From: Yamagishiella unicocca
Lineage: Eukaryota > Chlorophyta > Chlorophyceae > Chlamydomonadales > Volvocaceae
NCBI GenBank assembly: GCA_003116995.1
Contig: BDSL01000036.1
Location: 620,001 to 684,000 of the forward strand
DNA: 64,000 nt
Reading direction: 5' to 3'
Shown here: one piece after another, positions 44,252 through 64,000 of the stretch
Position numbering within the stretch: position 1 is the stretch's first letter
Layout: each line of letters opens with the position of its first letter
Program-made: the position numbers and the translations under genes
Notes under the pieces: model-generated
The model's database searches: none
What the model was told of the DNA's origin: nothing
Seen by the model: only the letters and a program-made list of their open reading frames with translations

Positions 44252-47104
44252 ATGGTGGTGGAGCACGTTCTGTTTACGGCTTTGGGACCCGCTTGGCCAA
44301 GCGCCGTTTGTGATGTTGACCCTCCAGTGCCCTGCCAACAACGCAACCCTCGCACCTGCCCTGGCCGGCGCACCCGCCATTGCAGGGTTGGAGCGAAACG
44401 GCCGAGCGTCCAGCGCGCGTACTCGCAGCGCCTATGCGAAGTGAGGAAGAAACTGGTCTGGATGCTGCCCTGCGACACCGCAGGGTGTGTAGCGGTTGGC
44501 AGGGCGCATAAGGCCGTAGGTACCTGATAAGGAAATATGCCTCTCCATGACCGCTGTCGTGTTCCTCATTGATTTGACGTCTGGCCCTGACGGAGTTGGC
44601 TAGGAGGGGTGCAGCTTCTTAGGTTGGGTGAAGGACATGAGGACGCAGCCGACGCCCATGTTTTGAACCACGGTATGGGCTTCAAATGTACGTGGTATGG
44701 TTAACGATGCATGTCATACCGGCCGTCCTTGAGATGGGAACGATGCATGCCATACCGGCCGTCCTTGAGATGGGAACGATGCATGTCATACCGGCCGTCC
44801 TTGAGATGGGAACGATGCATGCCATACCGGCCGTCCTTGAGATGGGACGTGCCTGACGCAGTAGTAATCGTTACAGTGGGCTCCAGACCTGTCGTGCTGC
44901 GATAAGGAAATAGATACTAGTTTTAGGAGGTCCATGGAGTCAGCGGGATCTGGACTTCGATGTGAGTTTGGGCCACGGTTTTGTGTATGTAGGTGTTTAC
45001 TGGTAGCCGCAGCAGGGTAGCTTGCGAGGTCCCATGGGCACTGCTTGCGCTGTTTCATTGTAGGTTGATGTGCTGGGCGCATAATGCACACGAATTTCGG
45101 CGTGGGCATTTTTACGCATCTAGTCTCAGCAGTACATTTGCCTCTTCTTCCTATCACCGCAACAATCCCTTTGTTCGGTCACATTTCTTTGTCCTGGCCT
45201 GCCTTACACCAATGCAGCCCACAGCGAAGCTTTTATACCTGGTCGAGCCATGCGTCCCATGTCGTCGGCCATAGCTTGCGCTGCTGACTTTCAGGGTTTA
45301 ATTGGGACGAGGGCGGGCCAAACAGACATGAGGATGATACAACCGCCTTGAGAATAGAGGGATACCCACACATGATCAACAAGCACAACCTCCAGACACA
45401 TCCGTTTGGTAGGCAGGCAAATTGACTATGCACGCAATGGGCCGTCGCAAGCAGGAGCCCCCAGACATCGCTGCAAAATAAAAGCGTCTCGTACAGCTTA
45501 TTTCCAAAGTTCAACAGAATTTCATCAGCGAGGCAAACAAAAAAGGCATCAAGCAATAAAAACGCAATCTGCAGGGGCAAAGCCTGATTGGGCCTACCGT
45601 ATCGCTGGGCGCCTTCTTGCCCAAATTAACAGCCACGCTGAAGTGACAGTGGCAGAAACCACAACATCAGAAGCCCCCACCAAAATTCTCGTGACTAGGG
45701 TTCGCAGACCCCGGTGCGCGAGCAAGGGCTCAACGACTGAAGGGGGACCAACAGAAGGGACATCGCTGCCGGACGACCGCGTCGGCATCAAGCGCAAAGC
45801 GTGTGCCACAACTATTTAGCAATCTCGTAACAACAAAGTTTTCAGCCACAGTACAACGCACGCGCACGAGTACAAGGTAGCATGCATCCTGTACGCAGAC
45901 GACGTACAGGACAGGAGCACGCCAGCGCTATGTACAGCTTCCTGTTGACATGACTAAAACCCTCACACCACTACCTGCCAGGCCTGCTTATGCTTTCGGT
46001 CTCCGACAGAGCCTGCTACGGAAACAGAGTTCATGACGGCGCGTACTTGCCCTTCGGCACGCCAAAATGGCGTGATCATTGCGCAGTACACACAGCCCTG
46101 TGTGAAACCCCCATTGCCAAAGCCAAGCTTGGCTGCGCCCCATTTGGAAGGCAAACATCCGCTCCCGCGCATGACCGCACCCACACCTTGCGCCCCCCGG
46201 ACCCGCACAAGAAGTCCCGCATCGCCACTCCACCTGCCTTCAGAAACTTAAGAAACAACAGCGTTACGTGGTTCCGGAGGCCAGCGGCGAAGGAAATCCT
46301 CCTAATGCCCAACCATGGGATCCCTGCGTTAGGCCTATGCGGCCTATGCGGCCCTCTCAAGTACCCCAGAGAACAAGTCGCCATGGCCACCTGCATCGGC
46401 CCTGTCGCTCGCCTCCGAACCATTCCTCCATAACATAGCATTAGCATCCTCCACTCGTACACCAGCCCCTGGGCGGCAACCCGCCGGCCCGATTGTTTTC
46501 TTACTCGCACAGGAGCGGCTTCTATGGCATACACGCTCAACGCTTCCTCGGAGCCAAGCGCCGCAGTTCTTGATAAGGGTTTCGAGCCCAGACCGGCCGA
46601 CCTCTGCCAAGACCGCACGTCTCCGGCGATACATCCGGCCTACGTTACTCCCTCGACGAGTGCATAACCCGTGTGGCACACGCATATGCCGCATGCGTTG
46701 CAGAACGCAAACGCACGGCTTGCTTGATGGCCATCCTAAATCCGATTCCAGCGCATGCTTTCGTGCGGACGCTACGCGCTCCAACAACGTTAGGAGCAAC
46801 CAGATCCACCACAATCCAACAACGTTACCAACTCCAAATTGACCGAAGTGCGTCTGATACGCATGAGACCATACGCCTAGCTTGATTCCCGTGCAAGCTA
46901 CCGACGTTCCCAGAGAGGACGACCATCCGAGCAGGCAGCATCCTGAGGCAACGTAGTCGGTACGTCCCGCCACTGCATAAATGACCAGCCAACCCCCCTG
47001 CCCGTGCCCCGTATAACCCACACGCTATGCCCCACGAGCCGCTTAATTCAGCGGTACGCTGCCTTCTCGCGGACGAGCCGGCAGAAGGAGCCAACAATGC
47101 AGCT
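44252..47104. other. Convergent intergenic region, AT-hook (+) and PP2C (-)
   Basis: Holds both 3' UTRs, a 36-bp tandem array (44703-44849), one dispersed short-repeat copy (about 44856-44893), and otherwise nothing recognisable. A 225-codon minus-strand frame (47021-46344) follows the PP2C stop but has no family signature or codon bias like the neighbours, so I take it as 3' UTR. Confidence 0.55.
44703..44849. repeat. 36-bp tandem repeat, about 4 copies
   Basis: GATGCATGTCATACCGGCCG followed by TCCTTGAGATGGGAAC, repeated with a period of exactly 36 bases. The first and third units have GTCATACC, the second and fourth GCCATACC, so the array probably grew by duplication of a 72-base dimer. 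The period keeps a frame open (MSYRPSLRWERC repeats), but no translation is implied. Confidence 0.95.
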
Positions 47105-49544
47105 TCATCGGGACTCAACCGCATTGGCGTGTGCGCCCGCTACTACCGCAACCACGGAGCTCGTACGGTAGAGGTCCAAGGCGATTCCCCCAGCCAGCGG
47201 CGGTAGCATCATGCCCGCTGTGCACATGCTGGCCACAGAGCCAGACGCAGACCCCGTGCGCTGATCGGGGCCCGCGGATGTTTCTGACAAGCTGCGAGTG
47301 CTGTGACCCGTAGCCATCATCGAAGCCGCCCATTCGGTCAGACTCCCGCGCACCGCCGCCGGCGCGGAGACCGTGTTGTTCTGCTTCACTGGCGAAACGA
47401 CCTTGCTTGAGCCGAGCGTGTCGCGAGCCGCCTCGCACGAACTGGCACGTATCTGTGTGGTGGGCGCCGCCGGTGCAGCAGCACTGACGTGCGGCTCCCA
47501 GCCCACCAGCGATTGGGTACCATAGGGCCCGGACGCAGTCGTGGGAGCACGCCTCCCTGGACCCAATAATTCCTCCATCGATACATCGGCTGGCGAGAGC
47601 GATAACATGGCTGGCCCTTGTAGTGCAGGAGAAAGTGGGCTGTCAGGAATCGCCTGCGGCGGCGCCGGCGCCAGCGTCTGGACGGGCCACAGTACTCCGT
47701 GGCTTGATCCAGACGGCGGCAACTGCCTCGCGCAAAACGGCGTAGGCGATGGCGAAGAGGCTAACCCAGTGTAGGCTTCTGCGCTGGTGCACGCCGGTGC
47801 TGCCGGTATGGCCGAGTCGTGCACTTGCTGGCAACAGCTCGTGGTGTCCCTCGGCGTCATGGTCGCCGCCAAGTGCGGCTTCGACGGCGGCGCGCACGTG
47901 CCCGGGGCCTGGGGCGACGAGGAGCAGTCCATGTTCACTTCTTGCGAGGTGAAGGGCGACTGTCCGTCGCAGCAATTCGGCCCCCGCTGCACCGCCACAG
48001 CTTTGTAGGGCGTCAGGACCTCGCCCGCAGCTTGCACTTCCCGCGACCCCGCATTCGAGCTGGGGCCTGCCATGGGTACCAAGTCCACGACCACCACCGT
48101 GATGTCATCCTTGCTGTTACGGTCGCGGCTGAACCTCCCGATGGCGGAGGCGGCCATGCGGATGGCGGTGGAGCGCGGCGATCCGCGCTGCGCTGCGCGG
48201 GTCACCACGCGGCGCGCCACGTCCGCGACCTCGTCGTTGCTGAGGACGTGGAAGACGCCGTCGGTTGCCAGGATGAGGAACTCATCTTCTGGGTGTCGCG
48301 GCGTGACTATGACCTGCGTGGCGAGGACACCATGAGTGCAGGTCGTTGTCACAAACATCTGGGTGCCCGTAAGCGTTCGGCTTGCTGCTGAGAAAGGGGG
48401 GGAAGCCTCTGGGGCCGAGAGGCAAGCGCGAGACGCCCCAACCTTTCATCGCGGCAAGAAGTGCGAGTTGAAACGCCCATACCCCCACACGTCTTTTCCC
48501 CGCTCACGTGCCTTCCCCAGTCCCCTCCTTACCCGCCAAACAACGGAGGTAGGTTCTCACCTCAGGCTCGGCAGTCACCCCGAACTGCTTGAGGTCGCGG
48601 TCCCCGAACGCCCGCGTCGTTGCCAGGACGCCCATGACTCGCTCGCCTTCATTCCATAGGATCTGCCCCCCTGAGCCCAAGACACGCTCCTGGGGGAGGA
48701 CAAACAGATGACTCGTGTAAAAAGTTGTTCGCAAGAAAGGCAACGGTGCTCGAGGACGAGCTTTGGTGCGCGTGGGGGCGGCGCTCTAGACTGACAGCAG
48801 CGACCCGGAAGCCCATCCTGATTTAAACCGGCCGCTTCACCCACCCGCTCATCCGGACGTTCAGGCCGGTGGTCTTCCGTAAGAGCAGACACGCGGCCGC
48901 CGCGGCAGAGCAGCGCACGCGAGTCGCCTGCGAACCCAAATGCCAAACGGCACCACGAACGGGACACTGGTGGTTCAGGACAAGTGTCGATCAGTTCATA
49001 TGTATACACGTTAAGTTCAGGATGATATATCAGCGCACTATCCGGCGCTGGCTTGTTGCCATCCCAAGGCCTACTCACTGGCAGCGGTTGGTCAGTGAAA
49101 TCAAGCCGCTTAGGAGGAAGCTATATTCAGGTCAAACACAAACCTACCGCAATGTGCAACTGTTATTTCCGTAGCGCTGAGCAGCGCCACAGTCGCCGTC
49201 GAACCGGCATTCGGGCAGTTGAGTGTTGCCTCTTCTAACGCGGAGTCTGCCGCTTGAAATGCACGGCTCAGAGCCGCCGCTGTGTTGGGTGCGACCACGC
49301 CACATGCCTCCACGTAGTGGTGCAAAGAGGCGGCCAGAAAGCGGCTAACCTCGGAGCCGCTATGTCCGTCATACACGCCGAAGAAGGATACCATGCCCAG
49401 GGCGCCCAGCCAAAGCGGGCAAACGCAGAATGTGTCTTCATTTGGTCTGGTTGGATGGGGCACAACATAGGCGCTCGCCAGTGGCTGCTCTGGGCTCGCG
49501 CACGAAAAGGCCTGCGCCGAGTCGGCCAGTTGCGGCTGGCCCAT
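47105..49544 (-). CDS. PP2C-type protein serine/threonine phosphatase with long C-terminal tail, 605 aa
   Basis: Four minus-strand exons in consistent phase: 49544-49148 (ATG), 48927-48845, 48689-48561 and 48313-47105. PPM/PP2C motifs in order: NED (35-37), GVYDGHSG (56-63), TVAHCGDSRALL (around 127-138), [42 protein letters not shown] (around 219-231) and [10 protein letters not shown] (272-281). The metal-binding Asp residues (D37, D59, D221, D273) are all present, so the enzyme should be an active Mg/Mn-dependent phosphatase. The catalytic domain ends near residue 285. The remaining ~320 residues are Ser/Pro/Ala-rich, without a known domain, and may be regulatory. No signal peptide or membrane segment is seen. 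The substrate is unknown. Confidence 0.93.
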
Positions 49545-50532
49545 ATTTAGATTGTGCCACTTCAGCCCAAGGCCAGTACTGGAAAATCAAAATCGCCTGC
49601 ACCGGTAAGTCCAGTCCGAGAGCGCGTTCAACGGCCTCCAGAGTAGACACTGCAGATGTATAGGAACGGCTTGGTCGAAGACTGACAAGGGATGATCGAT
49701 ATAATATGCTTGTGCAGTTAGCAGCTTTGCCGTCATGAATTCCTACCGGGCCAACCCTCGACTTGTGTACGGCCGCTCGTCAAAATGAGGTCTTCAGAAC
49801 AACACCAGCTAAGCGTATTATCAGCATCTTTTGTAAAATATATCTTTAATTTAGAAGCTGCAGGCTGGCGTTCTACCACGGTCGTTCAGTAGTCGAAGCT
49901 GTGACTGGCAACTTTGGTTGGGATATTGCTTACGCAGCTTGGCTTAAGTTCCGCAATGTTTTACAGGCTGTAAGCGTTGGAACTTCCCGCTTTCAAGAAA
50001 GGTACCAGGACAAATGTACTGCATTCGACCTGCACCATCCCGTACGCGCCCCAAGCCTTAACAGCCCTGAAGGATGCATCTAATGCAATCAAGGCTCTCG
50101 CAAATGAGGAAGAGAGATCTGGTCAAACTGGTTATTAAGTGCATCACGAGGGGTGTACTGCCATGCTCATGCTGTAGTAACCATTCCTGGGTCAGCATCT
50201 TGATCCCTTAATCAAAAAGCCATGCTGAGGAGTCATTGATTCATTTCTGTTGAGGTCCACTGAACCCCCTTGATTTACCACTCTTGCTAGGGACCCAATG
50301 GGAGCATGCTGTATGACACTATGGAAGTAGAACATGCATGCAACCGTCTTATTACCCGCGGCAAATGCCTCCTAAGGGCGCGTGCAAGGCCACGACAGCA
50401 CCAACTGCCAGGACCTTGACTGCTCTATTACAACAGTAAATTGTTGCGATGTGGTTCTCCACGAACGTCAACAAAAATGTAAGCAAGACTTCAAATCTTT
50501 CGATCAATAAAATATGGCCAAAAGATGTGGGA

Positions 50533-50580
50533 AAGCGCCTGCTGGATGGAAGCAAGCATCGAAACTGACAGCAGGCGCTT
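50533..50580. repeat. 12-bp perfect inverted repeat, 24-base loop
   Basis: AAGCGCCTGCTG (50533-50544) pairs with CAGCAGGCGCTT (50569-50580). It is GC-rich in an AT-leaning stretch, so a transcript would form a stable stem. No U-tract or RNA family is evident. Confidence 0.85.
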
Positions 50581-53127
50581 GCCCCGTCAAACACATCATA
50601 GATCGCATCAACTTAGTTTGGATATCTGTAACGCGTCGAATAAAGCATGGAAATGTGCTTTCCCAAAATGGCAACGTTCGGTATTTTTTCGTCACGGCTC
50701 GTCCATAGTAACGACGATCAAATCATGCAGTATTGCAGTTGCCGTGAACTCAATGACCATATTTATTACTGTTTGGCGTGGTGATGTATATGTGTTTCAG
50801 TTCAGGCAAGCACACCGGATGCGTAACCTTGTATTCCACAATATTCGCTGCGTTCCGGAGATCCGTTTGTTATGCCTGCCAAAGAACATCCCGAGGTTTG
50901 GTTATTATATGTTGCAGTCAACATCTTGAAGCCAGATAAAAATCCCTACTCTACTTACTAAGCAAGCCTTCATTGTGGTCAACGTACGGAACTGCTCCGT
51001 TACCGCTTACCCGCGCGCGTGTTCCTCAAAAGAATCCTCGTCCATCTGGCCCGAGCCACGTGTCACACCTTACCTCCCGATTTTATAATATTTCTGCGAA
51101 GCGAATCAGATGCTCGTTGTCTCTGCAGCCCATCTGCATCTGTTTGTCCTGGGCTTGCCTGGGCTTGCCCGGGCTTGCGAACACTGCGAGCATCGAGCAT
51201 GTATTCCCTGTGATTTCTGGGGATTCTGCTGGCTGCCATCGTTGGTTTCTCGTACGATGAGGCCAGTGGGGCCTCGGCACGGGCGGGCGCGCGGGCCCCT
51301 CTTGTCCTGGGCTCGCCCAGGCTTGCGGATACTGTAATATCATGCTGTTTGTACATGTTACAATGACGACCTTCGCTGGTACCTCCCCTGACGCATGAGG
51401 ACGGCGGTCACACAGCCCTAGGCACCCTACGCCTTCTTGAAGCACCATTCGGCACTGTTCGGCACCATCCACTGGCACCGATTCGCAACCTGTTTATGTT
51501 CTCAGTCGGCAGGGGTCCCTTCACCTCTTGGTGACCCCCACAACTCCTGTCTGACTGCAACGCAAACGAGTTCTAGCTGGAGGCTTCATACAGCCGTGCG
51601 ATCGTAAAGGGACTGACTAGTTCTGTCGTGCCCGGTAATGCTTGAGCTAGGCACCATCCTGTACCCCACACTGGGGCGCTTCCTGGCGCTTCATGAACAA
51701 CCTCGCGCCCAAACCCAGCCGCACACCGGCTTCAGTGAAAACGCGCCCATCCGGTCGGGCCCCGAATTGGAACAGCGGTGTCGGGTGCGAGCAATGAAAT
51801 CATGGAACAAAGGTCTCCACATGCGACCGGATGCTGCGAAGCGTGCAGCGCGCAGGCCTTAATACGGCAGCTGCGTTGACACCGCTGCCACCTCAAAGCT
51901 CTGCGCCAGAAACCGTTTAGGCCGTGTTCCTCCCTCCATGCCCCTGCCTCACCTGCCCCTCCACGTGTGCCCGTACGATATCTGCATCACCAGCCGCCTG
52001 CCCTTCGCCTACTAGTTCAGAACGCTTGGTTCGGGGAGGGGGCGTCGCTGCGGACAAATAAGGACTGGTCTTGCTACCTGGTGGCGTTGGCTGCCGACGC
52101 GCTAACTGTCAACCGTCGTTCATTCGCTAGGGCCAGGTCTTGATGGGCGCCCAGCGGCATCGCACCGCTCGTAGTCCCGGGGGCAGCATCTGGCATGCTG
52201 TTCGAGGAACAACGTTGTTGTAACGGGTTACAGTGGGTTCCAGACCAAAAGGTAGAACCATCGAACAACGTGTGGGGGGAGCCCTGTGGTTCTTCCCGGT
52301 GCCAATGCCGTGTTTGTACACCGTTGGATGGTGTCTAGTGGGCAGCCCGGCGGGCGTGGTCTTGCGTCCTGGTGGCCACGACGGGTTGGCAGCGCTGGTG
52401 GGCAGGGTCTTACGGGTAGCAGGTGATGCCGGAATAGGATCCAGGTGACCAGAGCAGGGCTGGTCATGCATTCGACGTATCACATTCCCGGTCGCTCATG
52501 GCGTGGGGTTGTGGTCGGCCGGCGGGCGTGTATCTCTCCTTACTGCCTTATTGCGTTACAGCAGATAACAGACACGAGGCCAATCTGTGGCCGCCAAAGT
52601 TCGTCTGAGAAGCCCCAAAGCCCCCGTGGGAGGCCAAGCTACGACCGGCACTCAGATCCCAGCCGCCTGCTCACAACAAATCCCAAACCACCGACAACCC
52701 GGCCGTTATAAAATTGCACTAGTGGTCGACTGTGCTGCCAGTTACTGGCGGCGGGCGTGTATCTGTGTGGGATCGGTCCGGTGACGGCAGGCTGGCGATG
52801 CGGCGCGCATGTGACCACCATCCGGTACCGTATGCAAGCGCATTTAGGAGCCGCTGCTGCTGCAATGACGCCGCCACGGCGCCATGACGGCGGAAGCCCA
52901 CGAAATCCTACGTGCTTGAAGCCGATGGCACCCGGGAGACGGCGACCAGAGCGCGCCAGTCAGCGCGGAGCGGAACACAGGCTGACTCGGACTGGGGCGA
53001 CCCGGAAGGGGAGCCGGGCGCCCACCACCCAGCAAAAGCAGAGCAAGGGCAGCCTCTGCTCTGCTGTTACAACCTCTTATCCGAGAAGCCCCCAAGGAAC
53101 ATTAAGCCAACAATAAGAAGGAGCATA

Positions 53128-53490
53128 TTACAGTGTCTGCAAGCACGGGCAGGGCCAGGACAAGGAGGGAGGCGCGTAATGAGACCTCACCGTACGAGAA
53201 GCCTGCGCTAACTGCGCAAGCCGCCAGCAGACGCCAGCAGACGGCAGCAGACGCCCAAACGCCAAAGGGAAAACAGGACATCCCGCCGGGGCCAGGAGGG
53301 CGGGTCCTGCCAAAATAGAACAGGCACCCCAAGGCCCACTGCAGATAAAACAGTGGTACCAAACAGCCCGGACCGACGGTCTGGGGACAAAAAAACCCGG
53401 CGGCCTAGGGCCCCACACCGACGGGAAATGCCCCATCCGAAAGGCGGGCCAGCAAAGGCCCATGAAGGCCCCTGACGCCTTTCCCGATTA
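53128..53490 (+). repeat. Dispersed repeat copy (GTCTGCAAGCACGGGCAGGGCCAGGAC...)
   Basis: Diverged copy of the repeat at about 26585-27010. The same order of words is kept: CAAGCACGGGCARGGCCAGGAC, TACGAGAAGCC, CAGCAGACGCC, CATCCCGCC, AGGCRCCCCAAGGC and GGTYTGGGGACA. Its left end also matches the tails of duplication copies A and B. A minus-strand partial copy is at about 51130-51340, and a short minus-strand piece at 62105-62165. Confidence 0.8.
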
Positions 53491-54137
53491 CAATTGAGCG
53501 CAAGTAAACGTGAGTACCCGTTTATGGTTTTAGGCTTTGCGTCATCCTATAGCTGCCAGGTGCAGTCCTTTCCTCGGGGAGACCAAAACAAACATACTTG
53601 GTTGGTGGGCATGGGCGGTGTTCAGGCAAGGTGCTGGCGGTTGGTACGCCCGTAAGCCGGATCCCCATGCTGTACGAGATTACCTAAAAAATTCCGGCTT
53701 CTTACCACAGTGTGACCAGCTGTGAATTCGCAGCATTCATGCATTGCAGTACCCAACGGTTCCACGTTTACCAGCAACAACAACATTTGCCATCGCATCG
53801 CAGTACACGGCGAACATCTCCTGCGTTGTCCGGCTATATATGTTCTTGAAAATTCCAGGGAAAGGTTCTGCAGTTGCGCGATCGTCGCAGCGAGCGCGAC
53901 CCACGCTGCGAGGTCAGCCTCCGCTGTGCTGCGCGCCAGCGCTCGCTGAGCATGGCAACACCAGAAAGGCTCAGGGCAGTGAGGGCGGGGAAAGGCAACG
54001 GAGGTACCTCGAAACCAAGGAGCATGCTTGGCAGTTTGTCCACGGCGACCCATTGCAACTGGTACAGACGCAGTACTGACTGGATGTCTTGCATTACATG
54101 CCCAGTGAGCGCGCGCACCAACTCGAATGACGCCAAC

Positions 54138-56767
54138 ATGCAGGCCACGATTCAGGGAGAAGGAAGTAAACTGTTCGAGAAAGGCTTCGACCAGTTGGTC
54201 ACACTCGCCAGCCCCAACCCCGCAGAGAAGCTCTCTGCTCGCTCAGTAGTGGATACACTGAGCAGGGAGCTGCAACGCATGCCACAGCTGAAGGTTCGAT
54301 TTGATCTTGTGCACCCTTGTGGGGCTGAGGGAGTCGACTAACCCATACGAATCTGACTGGCTGGATGTCCAGGTCACGCGCACCCAAATTGGCGGAAGTT
54401 TGGGTAGAAGCACCAACGTCTGCGGCAGTTTTGACGTAGGTGAGAGGGTGATGACCTTGGAGCCCAAGTTTTGACCTCCACGTTTCCGTCTGTTTCCGTA
54501 TAGGCTTGCGCGCAGATGCGCGGGCAGATGTTCTCCGTTTCGCTCACTGTGGCCGGAATGGAATGCCTGCAGACCTCCTCGTCTTTGTCAGCGAGTTCAA
54601 CGGCCAACCGTTGTCCTATCCTGACGATTGGGATGGCGTGGGCCGATTGCTCGACGAGATGCGCCGACAGGTTGGTGGGGCGCGGGCGTGTTCCAAGAGC
54701 CACCACGCACAATCTCCTTGGTGTCAGATGAGAAGTGCACGTCTGTGTATTTGCTGAGGACTTGTGACGATGTCCCGCTACCACAGGTCATGCAATGGTT
54801 GCTTGATCAGGATCATGGGCGCGTCAAGCTTGTAACAAGCTGCGACGCGTATTGTCCCCTTGTACTGCAGGTATGTGGTCGTTGGTACAGGTTAATGGGT
54901 GGGAGCAGAACTCGGGGACTCGGAGGTTTGCAAATTGGCCGTGCAAAAAATGAACTTTGCACGGGGGTTTGCCAACGTGTTTCGCTTTCGCACGCTTCCT
55001 TGCCGCGCATTTCCATACGCCCCGCCGTCTAAACCGGCCAGGCACCCGCCAGTGCATCAGCATCGCCAAACCAAAGCCCCACTCGCCCATATCTGAGCAT
55101 GGCTGCACGCCATCCCCCAGTCGGTGGATTACCGCCTCCTTCAGCAGCATTTTCGTCATACTCGTGCCGGCTGCTGTCCGCAAAGTGCCAGCCGCACCCG
55201 GCTGCAAGCGCCAGCAACTCTGCTGCCGAGCGCAATTGCCGCATAGCGTTCCCCACTCTTGATGTCCGGCTACACCACGAGGAGCGCAAACTGACCGCCT
55301 TTGGCTCACCATCTCCCGCCCTCTCTCGCCTAGTTGGAGGTCCAGGGCTGGCAGGTAGACCTGCTCCTCCTGCCGGATTGCGTGGCAGGTGAGGTCAGCG
55401 CGGGGCGGGCGGAAGGCAGCCCACTGAGCTCTGGGCCCTCCCCTCCCTGGATCGCCGGCTGACAGACCCCCTTGCGGTGTTTTTTCCGCTGCACGCACAG
55501 GCCAAGTAAAAGACCCTGCCCAGGAGCAGCACCGGGTGCTGATGCAGCCGCTGTACGAACAAGTAAGCCAAAGCCACGAATCTAACGAAGCCGCCGGGCG
55601 TACGATCATTCGTACACAACTTGCTCAACCAAGGGTGGCACCCCGATTCTGCAGCTGCGAAAGAAGCCCCACTCGGCCAGCCCGGTGCTCTGGCGCGAGC
55701 GCGCCGCCTCCGAGTCGTTAATCAAATTCGTCTCGGCCCCACACGCAACACATGGGGACCAAGGCAAGGGCGTCGTTCGGCTGGTCAAGGTGGGTCGCCG
55801 CGCGACCTGATTCAGGTCGACCGCGGGGCGATGATTGGGTTATGGAACGGACGCGCTTCGACCATTTTGCGGTATAGCATGCAATGGGAAGTGTTGTTCA
55901 CCGCGAGCGCAGCCTTGATCGACATGCTGTTTTCTTCGTCACAGGCTTGGTACAAGTACGGCCTGAAGCCTCGCGGCCGGGTGCGCCACGTCAGCAGCGT
56001 GATGCTGGAGGTGCTGGTGCTCGCCGCGTACCAGCGGCTGCGCTTGCGGCTGCCAGTCCAGGAAGAGCTATTCAGCCTGGGGTACGAAGCTCTGCCTGCT
56101 GACTCCTCTCTTACTACGCACGCTTGTTTGCAGCAAGCACGCGGCTCGTCCAACCAAGCTCATTAACTCACTACTCGACGCTGGAATCTCGGTCTCTCAA
56201 TTCTTCACCCCTGGTTTCCTGCCTGCGGTGTTTGCACCATGTGGCACCGCAGGGGCAAGGTCACGACGGTGGAGCTGTTTTTGGAGACATTGCGGCTGCT
56301 GGTTGCTGCCGTCAGGGGTGCCGTGGTCATGGTCGATGCGGGGAGCTGGGGCTACTCGCCCCACATCGGAATGTGCTGCAGCCACATCTGGATGCCCGAC
56401 CCCGTCAAGATCATCCACCCCATCGACCCCACTTGCAACCTCGCCAGGGTAGGTGCCGTGCGTGAGCTGCGCGATCCCCCTGCCACAGCCAGAGAGCTGG
56501 CCTTCCTGTCATCATCGGCACGCCGAGGCTTCACATGCCTGAATGCGCTGGCTGCTAATGATGTCCCGGCTGCGCCGGCTGCCTCCTCTTGGTGCACTTG
56601 GGGAGCTCGTTGCTCCCCAGCCGCTGCCAGGCAGGGTGCCGGAGTGGAAGTGCCTGGCGTACGAGGCGGAGCAGCTGCAAGGCGTCCTGGAGACCTGCAC
56701 CTTCCGGCAGCTGCTCGAGAATTCAACACTAGGAGACGCCCTGGAGCGCATGAGGGCTGCAAACTGA
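54138..56767 (+). CDS. OAS-like nucleotidyltransferase (2'-5'-oligoadenylate synthetase family), 378 aa
   Basis: Ten in-phase exons: 54138-54293, 54373-54439, 54573-54670, 54787-54870, 55334-55388, 55501-55562, 55655-55789, 55945-56081, 56253-56448 and 56621-56767 (TGA). Residues 59-79 read IGGSLGRSTNVCGSFDVDLLVF across the exon 2/3 junction (positions 58-79). This is the GGS...DxD core of a Pol-beta-type nucleotidyltransferase, with D73 and D75 as metal ligands and D144 (QVDLLLLPD) as the third. The C-terminal half has OAS1-C features: a GVVRLVKAWYK helix (214-224), a buried LEVLVLAAYQ helix, DPTCNLA (323-329) and W339-x-x-L-A-x-E-A (EWKCLAYEA). Length equals that of a single-unit OAS. OAS enzymes make 2'-5' oligoadenylates from ATP, in animals on sensing double-stranded RNA. 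No transit peptide or membrane segment is seen. The exon 1 donor (GTTCGA) is the weakest junction. Confidence 0.87.
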
Positions 56768-57573
56768 TAGCGGCGCGCCGTACGATACAGCCGTGCTACA
56801 AAATTTGCAAATTACGGCCCGCATCTCACGCGGGGTGCTGAAGCCGCGCCCTTTAAGCTGTGGCGGCAAGTGCTTCGCGAGCGTGCGGTGCGATGTTGAC
56901 TATGGAGGACGGTGGAATCCTTCGTGTTGGCCACGCTGGGGAGGCTGCCGCTGCAGGCGGGCCAGACGAACGTTGTTCAAGCGGGTCTTGTTCAAACCAG
57001 AGGCGCTCGGAGCTCCAAAGATTGCGTGGCGCCGGATGTGCGTGCAATGACAGGCGCTCTGTTGCGATGTAGTGCGGATCTTCGCGATAGGTAGATAGAA
57101 ATAGCCCTGGTTGCGGCGCCCATGTCGCGTCGTAGCTCGTAGGGCATACATGCGGTGTCATGTTCACCGTGTTGCTTTCAAGTAATGATAGCTGCGTGGT
57201 CTCGGCCTGGCCCACATGCTGCTCGTGTCGGTCACTGTTCCGTCCTGCATCAGCTCGATACCGTTTTGCTGTGCCTGCGGACTTGGGCATTGTCCTGACG
57301 GCGGACCATTTAAGTAACGCGATGGGAAGTGGGTGCACGGGTTTATGTTGGAAATGGCCATAGCCAGCACAAAATCAGTCAAGCCCGCCCACAGCTTGTG
57401 GCCTTCGGAGCGCCGGTAGCTCCGGAGCCGGCCAGGAACAAAATACATTTTGGATATAGTAATTCAATCAGTGCGATATAATCCTGCCAATTGCTTTAGG
57501 TAAAGGCCCCCAACGCCCCGAGCTGAGGGGCTAGCTACTTGGAATTCCAGCCGTTATTAAGTAATGTGGTAAC
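56768..57573. other. Intergenic, OAS-like gene to THADA-like gene
   Basis: About 800 bases between two genes on the same strand, so 3' UTR of the first and promoter of the second. No TGTAA polyadenylation signal and no other feature that I can support. Confidence 0.5.
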
Positions 57574-60500
57574 ATGTCCGGTAAATTTAAGCGATCTCAG
57601 CGGCACCAGCGATGGAATGAGGCGGGCACTTGCTGGAGCGAGAAGTACTTGGCAGAAGTAAGTTTTGACAGTTATTGCGCACTCAAAGCTTGTATGATTA
57701 TGGTGCGATTGCTGCGAATATGGATGGCTTGGACGGTCTCAGCCGTCGGCATGGGCGTTGGCGGCGACTGAACCGCCATCCCACCCGTCAGCCGCCGCCT
57801 TTGGGTTTGACGTCCAATTCAGTATAACACTGAAGCACAATTTTTGATTTGTTCCGCCAGCGTCGGCTCACTGACATTTGACCGGCGGTGCCCCGTGGTG
57901 CGAACCATCCGGGCTTTGCAGCAGCGAAAACCCGACCGATCCCCTCTGCCCTTCACCTCTCGAAACCATAGCCGGCCGCCGCATCAGTAACGTAGTAGCG
58001 CTGCGGAGCTCCACGCGACTCCCCTCGCCCCGAAACCCCGATAGGCTGCCTCGGTGGATGCAGACGCCAACGCGCCAGCGCCGCTGCGCGCGCTGGCTTC
58101 GGAGCTGCTAGCGCTGTCCCGAGTGCAGCACACCTTTGGTGAAGTGGAGGAGCTGCGCGGCGTGCTTGCTGCCTTCCAGAAAGTCGTCGTCGCGGCCGCC
58201 ACCGCTTCCGGCTCCTCCGCGGCAAAACCACCTGCAACGGATGCGGCACTCGTGGCAGCAGGCGTGGTAGAGCCCGCCACCGCAGCAGCAGCAGCAGCAA
58301 CAGCAGCAGGTTTCGGAGCAGCGGCATGCGGCCCGCTGGAAACAGCCTGCTGGCTGCTGGCGGGAGTTTTATTCCAAGCCGGGAGCAGGCCCCTGCATCG
58401 GTCTGTGCTGGGGGCAGTGAAGCGCCTGCCGCAGGACCAGCTAGGTGGGCGGAGAGGAACCCGGGTCCGCTGGGAGGCGGGGGAGGTGCCTCCAGGGGGG
58501 GAAGCGGGGAACTTTGGGACGGGAAGGACGCAGGGGGAGAGGTGATGGGGGGCTAGGGGGCCAGAGGGTTCCTGGAAGCAACAACGACAGTAGAAAGGAC
58601 AATGGGGGCAAAGATGTGTTTCGACCACCGCCCCTCCGCCTCTCCGTCCCACGCCGCCTTCGTTCGCCCCTCCGAAACCAGACGTCTTTGGCGGCGCCGT
58701 CACCAAGCGCCTGCGGGCCACCCTTCGCGATTTGGACCTCGTGGCTCCGCTGCCCAGCCTGGACTCCGCCAGCACCGCCGCGGGCACGGCTGTTGGCGCT
58801 GCTGCGGACCTCTCGCAGCCGCCGTCGAGCGTCCCTCTGGGCGACCTGATGTCGTCGCTGTTGTGGCTGCCTGCCGCCCAAGGCTGGTTGCGGCCAGTGG
58901 CGGCGGCGGTGGTGTCGCGGCTAGCGGCGGGCGTGGACCGGGTGCTGGCGGCCGCGGACCGAGGGGCGCTGCACATCGCCCCCGGGCTGATGGAAGAGGT
59001 CCTGGTGAGTGGGGTGGCATGAAGAGAGGGTCCAGGAGTGCACGGGTGCAGGAGAGGAGGAGGGGGAAGAGAGCGGCCAGGGGGAGGGGGAGGAGGAGGA
59101 CGAGGAGGAGGAGGAGGAGGAGGGGGGGAGGAGGAGGAGGGGGAGGAGGGGGAGGAGGAGGAAAAAGAAGGGGAGGGGAAGGGGGACTCGACAGCGGCCT
59201 GCCGCCAGCAGCGCAGGTGTAGATGTCCGGTGGAAGGGTCCACAGTGGCGGCAGTCGCCGTCGTCGCCTCATAGTGGTGCCCAATCCTCCCCTCCCCTCC
59301 CCTCCTGGCTTCCTCATGGCACCGCCACGCCGCAGGATGCCGTGGGTGCGCTGTACTACCTGCTCCAGAACCACGGCCGCCACCTGGCGGGACAGGAGCA
59401 CGCGGAGGGGCAGGAGGCGGGACAGCAGCAGCAGCAGATGCCTCGGGGCCAGCACGCGGTGGTGCTGGCGGGGACGGCCATGCTGCGCGCGCTGCAGGTG
59501 GGTCATCGATCGCTGCTTGGGCACGTGCCTTGTCGTACCTTGTTGTGGCGTTGTCGTACCTTGGTGCCTTGTCGTACCTTGTTGTGCCTTGTCATACCTT
59601 GTCGTGCCTTGTTTGTATTCCCCGTGGTGCGGGCCCGGGGGCTGAACTGGGACTGGACTTGAGCTGAGGAGGGGAGGGGAGGGGAACTGCGGGTGCTGGC
59701 GCGGGAAAGGGCGGAGTGAGTGGCTTGTTGCTTGTCGGAGGTGGTGGGGGCGCACGGGGGGGTGCCGGCACATGGCACACGCGCTCTGCTGCGGAGTACT
59801 GCAGTGGCGCCGCATCCGGGGTGGGACAGACGGTGGGATTGGTGCGGGGCCCCGCCCACACCTGGGGCCCACGGGCTCACCCAACGCGTTCCAAAAGGCG
59901 CCGTGTGTCACCGCCACTCTTTCAACATGTGTCCTTCTGTCCCGCCCGCCCCACTAAACGCAACCCACCCGAAGGGCCGGGCGCTGGTGCGGGAGGCGCT
60001 CGCCTCCGCCGCCGTCGTACTGTGGGCAGCGGCGCTACTGCCTGACGTCGCACCCGGGTCCGCAGCCGCTGTCTTCGGCCAGGGGCTGTTCTTCCCGCCG
60101 CCGGACGCCGCCGCCGCCGGCGCCGCGGACCTCGTGCTGGTGTACGACGGTCGTTTGCCGGCGGCTGGCTCCCCGGCAGAGGAGGGGGGCAGCGGCAAGG
60201 GCCCGATCGGGGCGGAGGGCCCGCTTGGCGGCTGGCTGGACGGCTGGCTCCGGAGCCGGGACAGCAGCCTGGTTTCGGAGCTGCGTCGTTTTTCACCGAT
60301 CGGCCGCATCTGTTCGCTCAAGGGCCTTGTCACCGCCATGCCCCGGGTAGGGTGGGGTGGGGTAGGGTGGGGTAAGGAGATAGGGTTCGAGGAAGACCCG
60401 TGGATGCCTTAAAAAAACCGTTTAAAACAGGGAGATAGGGTAGGGTAGGGTTCTAGGGTAGGTTGGGGTGGAGGGTACGACTCGCTGTGCACCACTGCTA

Positions 60501-60954
60501 CGTTGGTTGCTGCCCCCTCCTGCCCGAGTGACTGCTGCTTCTGCCGCATCGTGGCTTGGCTCAAGGCATGTGTAGTATGTATATTTTGTTAGTAGGCTTC
60601 AGGCCAGGTTTTATCCTCGACGCGTGAGCAAAGAGATTCCTCCGACCAATCGAGTCCCGCTGCTGCGTCCTTTCCCCACCATCACAGGAAGCCACGTGCG
60701 CCGCCCTGTGGGTGGTACCCCGCCACCCGGCAAGACAGGACGCGGCATCACCACCACCAGCGCCCGCAGCTGCAGCCGCCTCCTCAGCCCCGTCCCCCGC
60801 AGTCGACCGGGCCCCGCCGCAGGTCGCCTGGCACTTCCTGATCGACGGCGCCCTGTCGTACGGCTGCTCGTCCATCCGTGACGCGCCGGACGCGCACTTC
60901 AAGTTCCACGCGGCGTGCGTGCTGTGCTTCTGCGTGTCTAAGGTGGCGGACTCG

Positions 60955-60988
<34 letters not shown>

Positions 60989-63900
60989 TATGCCATCAGG
61001 CCGGTGGGGGCCAGGAAGACGGGATTTACGAGACGGCCGCCGCTGCAGGCGAAGGAGCTAGAGGTGCGGCCGCCGGAGGTGGCAGCGGCGGCGGTGGCGG
61101 CGGCGGCGGCGGCGGCGGCGAGTCCCCCGCGGCTCCGCCTCTGCAACCGGCGCTGCTGCGGCCATCGACGCTGGAGGTGCTCATGGGGCTTATGTGGGCC
61201 AACCTGGACGAGCCGCTGGCGCAGACGGCTAGGCAGGTGCGCAGCGCGCATGGCTGTACTGTACGACAGGGTGTGCGTTGTACGTTCGGCAGGGCGTGCT
61301 GCCGCGGGCGCAAGTACCACGGAGGGATGGGTCGTAAGCTAGGGGCGGCACCCACTTCGCCCCCTTTGCTTCGGTACCCACCGAGTTCCGTCATGCGGTG
61401 TACGGCGCCCTACAACTGGCTCTGCTCCGCGATGCCCCAGACCCTATTGCCCACCAGATTGCGCCTTTTTTAAGCCAACCAGAGGGGTTGAAACGTCCCG
61501 AATGTGTGTGTATATGCGCGCGCAGCTTCAAGACGCCTTCCAGATGCTTCTGGAGGTGTACTCATGCCAGGACCGTTACGCAAGGGGAGTGCTGGCCCCC
61601 CTGGAGCAATTCAAGAGCCAGGCGAGTCGGGCGGGTGGCCTCACCGCAGCTCCGCACACGAACACACAAGCACCGGCATCCTTAGCACTTTTGGGGTAAC
61701 CTCACTGCACCGACAGGTAACCTTCAGCTGCTTGCGCCCACCCGAGCGGGAAATGCGTGCCTCCCAGCTCAGGCGTGATGTTGATCACTCTTGGGCCCCT
61801 CCACCTCAACCCTTCTTGCCGTACGGACCCCTTCAGCGTCCCTTTTCTTCTTAACCCGAATAACACCTTTTTTCCCGCGCCCGGTGTCGCAGGTGGTGGC
61901 GCAACTGCTGGCGGTGCCGTACACACGCAAAGGCCGATACACGTCACTGGGCTGCATGGCGGAGCGCGGCTGTGCGCTGGTGATGCTCCGAGACCATCCG
62001 CAGTTGATCTCGGAGGCGCTGCTGGCCATGCAGGTCCGTAAGGCCAGCGAGCGCGCTGCCGGAGGCCGCGAAGTGGTCGGGATGTCGGATACCGCGCATT
62101 GGTTACGACACCACAGTTACGACCGCCCTCTTGTGCTGGGTTCGCCCCGGCTTGCGGACGCCAAAACATATTTTTATTAGTTGTCTTATTATCAAATAGC
62201 AGTTATTACTTGCAAGAAAGCACAGTTACGACGCTGTGGTGATCGATACGTATTTAGGACACATCGTTCCGAGCCGTAGTTACCAAAAAGGACAGTCCTA
62301 ATCGATACATGCGAAACCGCGGTTATCATAACTAACCATACTTACCTAATCGTACTGAACCATCCGGACAAAACGTATGCGTATCAAAACGTGCTTTTCG
62401 CGCGCCTTTCGCGAACACCAACCGCCATCACACTTCACCCTCAACCCTGCCCTCGCCCCTGCAGGTTGACACTACAGCCAGCGCTGCTTCCTCCTTTCTC
62501 AAGACGCTCCTCGGCGCTGCTCGCACGGAGGCTAGCGCCAACCCGGAGCTGGCGGCTGCGGCCGCCGCCGCCGCCGCCGCCAGCGGCACCGCCGCCGGCT
62601 GCGGCACCGCCGCCTCGTCTCCCTGGGTGGAGCTGTGGCGTGGCGCGCTGCTAGGGGCCTTATACAGCGGCAACGAGAAGATGCGCTCGTACGTTTCGGT
62701 ACATGCGCTGCCCGTCGTACTAGGCTTGGAGCCGTCGTCCGCCCTGGAGCTGATTCACGCGGCGCTGGCGGACACGGCTCCGGAACCCGTCCCTGGGACC
62801 TCCCGGGTAGCGGCGCTGGTGGCCGTCCTTAAGGTACGGCATGACGTCATGGCCAGTCCGCTGGGCGCCTCTGCCCTCCCCACATTCACACCTCATTGCA
62901 GCCGACGCCCGACACGAGGCCGCGCTAGTGTAGACGCCGCCCCGCCGTACCCATACCCCCGAACGCTATCCCCAAGCCTCCCAAAGCCCGCCGTGTCTCT
63001 TACCCGCCGGCCTTCTGGGTGGTATGGCTTCAGCCGCCCGTAAAAGCTGCACCCACGGCTCTCCAGGGCCGGAACCACGCGCCTCCACCCACCGGCGCTT
63101 CCCACCTGCACTCCCAACCTCACCAAATCTTCTCGACCTCCCCAACCGAATCTTCCCACCCTCCCCAACCGAATCTCCCCAACCTCCCCAACCGAATCTC
63201 CCCAACCCCCCCACCTCCGCAGGCTGCCCGCGGCATGGGGCTGGTGGCTGACCTTGACGCGCTAGTGGCGGGGCGGCAGCGGCTGGCTCTGGAGCCGGAG
63301 GCGCTGCTGACGGCCGCGGTGGCTCACGCTAGCGAGGCAGTGCGGCTGGATGCCCTGGAGCTGGCGTGCGTGAGCACACGGATGAGCGACCCGCCGGGTC
63401 AGTCCGCCGGCCCCCGGCCCCACCAGTGTGTGCGAGGGAGGGCTCCTCCTGCTTCATCAATGGCGAGCAGCACCAAACGCGACCGTGATCGAAACCCCGC
63501 GCCGAACTTCCCCGAGCAGCTGTTGCTCGTCCTCACCCGTCCTAGCATGGGGGTCATAGGGTCCTCATACCTCCAGGCAATTGCAGCAACACCGGTAGCC
63601 AGGTTGCGTATCCGGCCCCCTGACCCCCGCCTCCCCGCCTCCCCGCCTCCCCGCCTCCCCTCCCAGGCCGGCTTGAGCTCGTCATCGCTGGCCGCTGGCT
63701 GAGCCTGTGCATGCGCAGTACGCCTCAGGGCTCCCGCAACAAGTGCCTGGTGCTGGTGACCAAGCTCATCGCGCGGATCCGAATGGCGGTGGCGCACATC
63801 TACCACAAGTAGGGCCCATGTAGGGCGCGGTTGGTGCAGTGGGGGACCCGGAGGCGGGCCGCCGGAGGTCGGGTGGCTGCCTTCCTGCTTTGGTTTCGGC

Positions 63901-64000
63901 GCGCGGCTGCCAGCTCCTAAACGGCTCCACAGCTCGGCACGTCGTACCGCAGCGGCGTCCTGCTCCCCATGCGCCATACAGGGACGACGGGTGCGTGAAC
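57574..64000 (+). CDS. THADA: THADA/TRM732-like protein (tRNA 2'-O-methylation cofactor), 3' end outside window
   Basis: Eleven plus-strand exons in phase: 57574-57657 (ATG, MSGKFKRSQRHQRW), 58045-58444, 58682-59004, 59336-59497, 59975-60346, 60688-61236, 61526-61621, 61893-62033, 62465-62833, 63223-63397 and 63667-63808, giving at least 938 residues. At least one more exon near 63930 and the true end are beyond the window. Hallmarks of the THADA/Trm732 (DUF2428) family occur in order: FSPIGRICSLKGLVTAMP, APDAHFKFHAACVL, TRKGRYTSLGCMAERGCAL, YVSVHALPVVLG, EAVRLDALELAC and GSRNKCLVLVTKLIARIR. It is an ARM-like helical repeat protein. Yeast Trm732 partners Trm7 to methylate the ribose of tRNA position 32. 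Exon 6 has a run of ten Gln (60958-60987) and a poly-Gly run. The intron after 61621 has a GC donor. Cytosolic. Confidence 0.92.
59035..59185. repeat. GGAGGAGGAGG purine tract in THADA-like intron
   Basis: Almost pure GGA/GGGGA repeats just after the exon 3 donor, similar in kind to the tract at 1836-1964. Low complexity, non-coding. Confidence 0.85.
59520..59615. repeat. CCTTGTCGTACCTTGTTGTG repeats in THADA-like intron
   Basis: About eight 10-base units of CCTTGTCGTA/CCTTGTTGTG directly after the exon 4 donor. Non-coding minisatellite. Confidence 0.85.
63117..63218. repeat. ~21-bp minisatellite (CCCCAACCGAATCTCCCCAAC) in THADA-like intron
   Basis: About four imperfect C-rich units immediately upstream of the acceptor at 63222. 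They double as the polypyrimidine-type tract of that splice site. Confidence 0.8.

Follow-up and report, generated by a model that had tools for sequence, protein, structure and literature searches.

The stretch analysed here (the window) comprises 64,000 nucleotides (nt) of the green alga Yamagishiella unicocca (contig BDSL01000036.1, positions 620,001 to 684,000). It carries a gene for a protein resembling 2'-5'-oligoadenylate synthetase (OAS), a family whose enzymes make the antiviral signal 2-5A (2'-5'-linked oligoadenylate) in animals. The gene model was rebuilt from the sequence: exons were spliced, and frame, splice sites and motifs were re-read. The gene lies on the plus strand at 54138-56767 and consists of ten exons; its spliced product has 378 amino acids (aa) and ends on a TGA stop. 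The original prediction of ten in-phase exons and 378 residues was reproduced exactly, all nine introns (79-463 nt) having GT-AG boundaries, and the residues D73, D75 and D144 as well as the motifs DPTCNLA and W-x-x-LA-x-EA (WKCLAYEA) were found where it had placed them. For exon support, 15 algal relatives were used as tblastn queries against the window (E ≤ 1). The features of the locus are:

54138..54293, plus strand: exon 1, ATG start and N-terminal helices; donor GT, tblastn match from Chlamydomonas reinhardtii P0002 (3e-8)
54373..54439, plus strand: exon 2, contains the P-loop GGS and D73, the first Asp; GT-AG, tblastn matches from 9 of 15 relatives
54573..54670, plus strand: exon 3, carries D75, the second Asp, whose codon is interrupted by intron 2, and the strand DLLVF; GT-AG, tblastn matches from 7 of 15 relatives, DVDLLVF unbroken with relatives
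54787..54870, plus strand: exon 4; GT-AG and frame, aligned in the full-length protein only
55334..55388, plus strand: exon 5, third catalytic Asp D144; tblastn matches from 4 of 15 relatives, D144 conserved as Asp in all 25 family rows
55501..55562, plus strand: exon 6; GT-AG, tblastn matches from 4 of 15 relatives
55655..55789, plus strand: exon 7, RLVK motif, four extra residues at its start; tblastn match from P0003
55945..56081, plus strand: exon 8, S-x-x-LE helix; tblastn matches from 8 of 15 relatives
56253..56448, plus strand: exon 9, core of the Pfam domain OAS1_C with DPTCNLA; OAS1_C match at residues 313-350 (below cut-off), tblastn matches from 15 of 15 relatives
56621..56767, plus strand: exon 10, W-x-x-LA-x-EA helix and stop; frame, splice site, weak tblastn match (0.084), 'ARP' at the junction
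53952..54137, plus strand: upstream in-frame open stretch of 62 codons; ATG at 53952, judged by GC content per codon position

Matches were obtained at nine of the ten exon places; judged from the sequence, they are not due to chance. None of the 15 relatives gave a match at exon 4, and the match at exon 10 is single and weak; these two exons are supported by their frame and splice sites and by the alignment of the whole protein. Conserved blocks span most exon junctions in the alignment with relatives. GC content at the third codon position is 0.77 over the exons, and the introns have a GC content of 0.59. At the last junction an in-frame alternative (56452/56631) would give 376 aa; the chosen junction is preferred because it restores the 'ARP' of several relatives. 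Exon 7 of the model starts with four residues (LRKK) that are extra with respect to most aligned relatives. The upstream stretch has GC values of 0.39/0.66/0.66 at the three codon positions versus 0.66/0.41/0.77 in the exons; it is probably 5' untranslated region, and an N-terminal extension is possible. The start codon is not settled, because a Chlamydomonas study (PMC4751561) judges that upstream ATGs lying in frame like this one are used in about half of the cases. As far as it can be read, the gene model supports a complete, eukaryotic gene. On the plus strand 3' of the stop (56768-64000) there is no TGTAA, which we take to be the algal poly(A) signal; the whole window holds 79 copies (shuffle mean 58.4).

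The core of the OAS superfamily, GG[S/T], D-x-D and a third Asp, is present in the protein (D73/D75/D144), and the three residues align with D74, D76 and D147 of pig OAS1 (numbering from the accessible part of PMC6307210). In a profile comparison, OAS1 scored 6e-17 versus 9e-8 for CdnC, a cyclase of the bacterial cyclic-oligonucleotide-based antiphage signalling system (CBASS). OAS1_C (PF10421) was matched at E ≤ 0.1 by nine of 14 members of the algal family set; among ten relatives scanned separately, five were above the cut-off, three below it and two without a match (P0006 belongs to both sets). Other Pfam matches in the 14 members were NTP_transf_2 (four), SMODS (two), tRNA_NucTransf2 (one, 0.081), YcaO (one) and DUF3614 (one), and no poly(A) polymerase (PAP) or terminal uridylyltransferase (TUTase) domain was found among them. 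The CBASS cyclase models NF041116/NF041117 gave at most 29 bits in four relatives versus a curated cut-off of 200.

For the structural comparison, predicted models of two algal relatives stand in for the window protein. Both have an OAS-type fold: OAS chains occupy ranks 1-7 of the structure list for one relative and ranks 1-8 for the other, with CdnC as the next structural neighbour. A fold nearer to poly(A) polymerases or TRF-type enzymes, which would have spoken against the original prediction, was seen in neither model. Two observations qualify this picture. The window protein alone reaches 18.3 bits with OAS1_C (E 0.0018), 1.6 bits short of the cut-off of 19.9, so that the domain proposed earlier is matched but at a score below threshold; and the apo OAS1 chain 1px5_B appears only at rank 13 in one of the two structure lists. 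Overall, the OAS-type assignment is supported by sequence and by the predicted structures of the two relatives. The profile scores point to membership of the window gene in the OAS superfamily of cGAS/DncV-like nucleotidyltransferases (CD-NTases) and favour OAS1 over CdnC.

To map functional residues, 25 algal rows were aligned with pig OAS1 (human numbering is used). The catalytic triad is conserved: 23 of 25 rows have Asp at D75 and D77, the other two being gapped there, and all 25 have Asp at D148. The OAS1 residue is also retained at R210 (20 of 25 rows), K213 (22 of 25) and E233 (23 of 25), and K66 corresponds to Arg or Lys in each of the 24 rows that have a residue there. Since these catalytic residues are kept, the window protein is predicted to be an active enzyme. 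At Gln229 of OAS1, 24 of 25 rows carry Ser, and no row has Tyr at Tyr230; the window protein reads Ser-Val here. The acceptor residues T187/T190 adjoin an indel and were left unmapped. K60, R195, K199 and K204 are double-stranded RNA (dsRNA) contact positions of OAS1. Of the 24 rows that have a residue at K60, eight show Lys, and the window protein shows Ile; at K199, 18 of 25 rows have Lys or Arg, and the window protein has Ser; R195 lands in an alignment gap. K204 (Gln in the window protein) is basic in none of ten clade I rows versus ten of 14 clade II rows with a residue, clades I and II being the two sides of the family tree below, which may differ in RNA binding. Taken together, the residues make oligoadenylate synthesis likely; they do not support the idea that dsRNA controls the window protein as it does in mammals, or that its product is strictly 2'-5' linked.

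Two protein searches yielded 15 and 17 relatives, respectively (the latter including the unnamed fragment P0026), and all named proteins are volvocine: Tetrabaena, Chlamydomonas reinhardtii, C. schloesseri, C. incerta, Pleodorina, Gonium and Edaphochlamys. About 8000 candidates sharing the most words were scored per search, and relatives may exist elsewhere. A profile search returned nine proteins, all already in the set. The phylogenetic reconstruction was based on algal sequences only (25 rows, without P0026 and without P0013, an older model of P0002); it was midpoint-rooted for drawing only. The tree contains one main split (support 100/99). Clade I (ten rows) comprises the window gene, the Tetrabaena protein, two adjoining Gonium genes, one C. 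reinhardtii, two C. schloesseri and three Edaphochlamys sequences. Clade II (15 rows) includes genes numbered almost in series: 13g605550/605600 in C. reinhardtii, 013022, 013036 and 013037 in C. schloesseri, and 012508 and 012512 in C. incerta. P0020 and P0023 seem to be one gene modelled twice. In P0001 (Tetrabaena TSOC_001543) the C-terminal half of an OAS-like protein is present twice, by internal duplication or as a fused gene model.

In Chlamydomonas there are several copies, and the gene numbers of some of them adjoin. In the Y. unicocca assembly (133.4 Mb in 1415 contigs, of which C36 contains the window), searches with the window protein, P0006 and P0002 matched only the window locus (ten, two and one matches); diverged copies may be missed, because the searches were made exon by exon in six frames. 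A genome search with OAS1_C found no match and missed the window gene itself, therefore its silence means nothing for other copies.

Foreign origin was considered as well. Bacterial contamination was rejected: nine intact introns speak against it, as had been argued originally, and a GTDB contig scan with one pattern gave five matches, none confirmed as a relative. Viral origin was likewise rejected, none of 62 pattern matches in viral contigs being confirmed. Two viral structure matches fell below 0.001, squirrelpox OAS and a Hyperionvirus protein, which are taken as a shared fold only.

The original prediction of a eukaryotic, OAS-type gene is supported; the element of surprise attached to it is not. 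The signalling against viruses or transposons that it suggested may be one role of the enzyme. Several Chlamydomonas relatives are already named 2'-5'-oligoadenylate synthetase in UniProt (hypothetical at NCBI), and a C. reinhardtii gene of that name, Cre15.g641050, appears in the accessible part of a 2017 paper (PMC5508029). In the accessible text of a 2023 study (PMC10732462), OAS-like proteins occur in eight of 12 eukaryotic supergroups (green algae not being established among the eight) and possibly predate the last common eukaryotic ancestor; the OAS superfamily is nested in bacterial clade C. The window gene therefore adds to a known algal OAS-like family: the gene in this alga is new, its kind is not. 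No study of the enzymology, product, trigger or receptor of an algal OAS was found among the titles and opening abstract lines of the open-licence PubMed Central papers listed.

The closest comparisons are with C. reinhardtii CHLRE_05g234666v5 (P0006) and CHLRE_13g605600v5 (P0020), which share the algal family and are listed in UniProt under a truncated 2'-5'-oligoadenylate synthetase name. The window protein is 38% identical to P0006; P0006 and P0020 are above the OAS1_C cut-off and sit in clade II, across the main split from the window gene. When the two modelled relatives are aligned by structure with animal OAS1 (PDB 4RWN, 4IG8), identity is 17-20%, and where animal OAS1 has Gln229-Tyr230, K60, K199 and K204, the window protein has Ser-Val, Ile, Ser and Gln. 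By analogy with sponge OAS, as described in the accessible text of PMC6307210 and PMC2852836, the window enzyme would be expected to lack mammalian dsRNA control and RNase L; this comparison is by description only. The bacterial CdnC (PDB 6P80) shares the CD-NTase fold with the window family, and its match is weaker than that of OAS1 in both sequence and structure.

The animal OAS1 pathway uses RNase L, whereas none was found in the algal genome by its KEN domain (PF06479), ankyrins not being scanned for and the 10 kb around a match being read by eye. The single KEN match in the genome (C54:484842-486579) is preceded by a kinase text read by eye, which resembles IRE1 by its motif. The genome search for RNase L-like effectors proposed with the original prediction thus led only to an IRE1-like locus. 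On the minus strand of C54:480001-490000, IRE1-like kinase and KEN exons are followed further downstream by a CCCH zinc-finger-like text (EFYLKTGHCKFGETCVFDH), in or beside the gene. Viperin gave no genome match; 11 of 14 controls matched, none above the cut-off, so that they do not serve as a positive control. Searches for SAVED and STING also came back empty, which is uninformative because their controls were silent too. In the window, ten neighbouring open reading frames (ORFs) were scanned (nine of the 36 ORFs of at least 220 aa, plus one of 106 aa); nothing among them points to a defence cluster. The two with matches are:

47108-48445, minus strand: PP2C-like phosphatase exon (Pfam 7.5e-8)
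62336-63040, plus strand: weak Trm732-like ORF (Pfam 9e-4, below cut-off)

On this evidence we consider it rather probable that the window holds a nuclear volvocine gene for a catalytically competent OAS-superfamily enzyme which makes short linear oligoadenylates without a dsRNA switch or RNase L. D73, D75 and D144 would hold two metal ions, and AMP would be moved from one ATP onto another, so that short linear chains of oligoadenylate arise. Their linkage might be mixed 2'-5'/3'-5', as in reports on sponge OAS. With neither the dsRNA switch of mammals nor RNase L, the product would feed some other effector.

A CD-NTase making a cyclic oligonucleotide, like the bacterial clade C CBASS enzymes, with a receptor other than RNase L, appears unlikely. 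The nesting of the superfamily in clade C (PMC10732462, accessible text) is consistent with it, as are the weak profile matches to CBASS cyclases, the weak SMODS matches of two of the 14 members (best 0.0018), the second place of CdnC behind OAS in the structure lists and the Ser in place of Gln229 in 24 of 25 rows. Against this, OAS1 is clearly ahead of CdnC by sequence and in most structure comparisons; the missing SAVED match counts weakly, its controls being silent. A diverged enzyme tailing RNA 3' ends (poly(A) polymerase- or TUTase-like), perhaps organellar, is very unlikely, as OAS structures lead both VIA lists, the DPTxN...W end of OAS1_C is kept and PAP-like Pfam matches in the 14 members are limited to NTP_transf_2, a general nucleotidyltransferase domain, and the one tRNA_NucTransf2. 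That the gene is a decaying or silent copy would fit the one locus versus several in Chlamydomonas and the absence of TGTAA downstream, but is highly improbable given nine introns with intact splice sites, a frame open over 378 codons, the coding GC pattern and the kept catalytic residues.

Some clade I proteins carry a hint of organelle targeting. Six of the nine other than the window protein (P0001, P0002, P0008, P0010, P0011, P0015) have N-termini well upstream of the core, mostly rich in Arg/Ala/Ser/Pro, with 0-3 acidic residues among the first 50. The remaining three models have their start within or close to the core, with 4-11 acidic residues; so does the window model, with six. Values were listed for 12 of the 15 clade II proteins: 4-16 acidic residues in 11 of them and none in P0004. 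In P0001, P0010 and P0011 the leader is followed by a common FAExEGRYxK segment, and the acid-poor leader plus this segment looks like an organelle leader and a conserved mature start. For the window gene itself such a leader is not established: no convincing upstream transit-peptide exon was found by tblastn of the relatives' N-termini on 51501-54400 or by a motif scan of 47000-54137. That clade I works inside an organelle, as the transit-peptide-like leaders and the missing basic residue at K204 might suggest, is doubtful. If true, an OAS-like oligonucleotide signal would operate in an organelle of green algae and would have a dedicated receptor other than RNase L.

Because green algae are amenable to genetics and only distantly related to animals, their family of these genes allows a direct look at what OAS-like enzymes do in the absence of RNase L and interferon.
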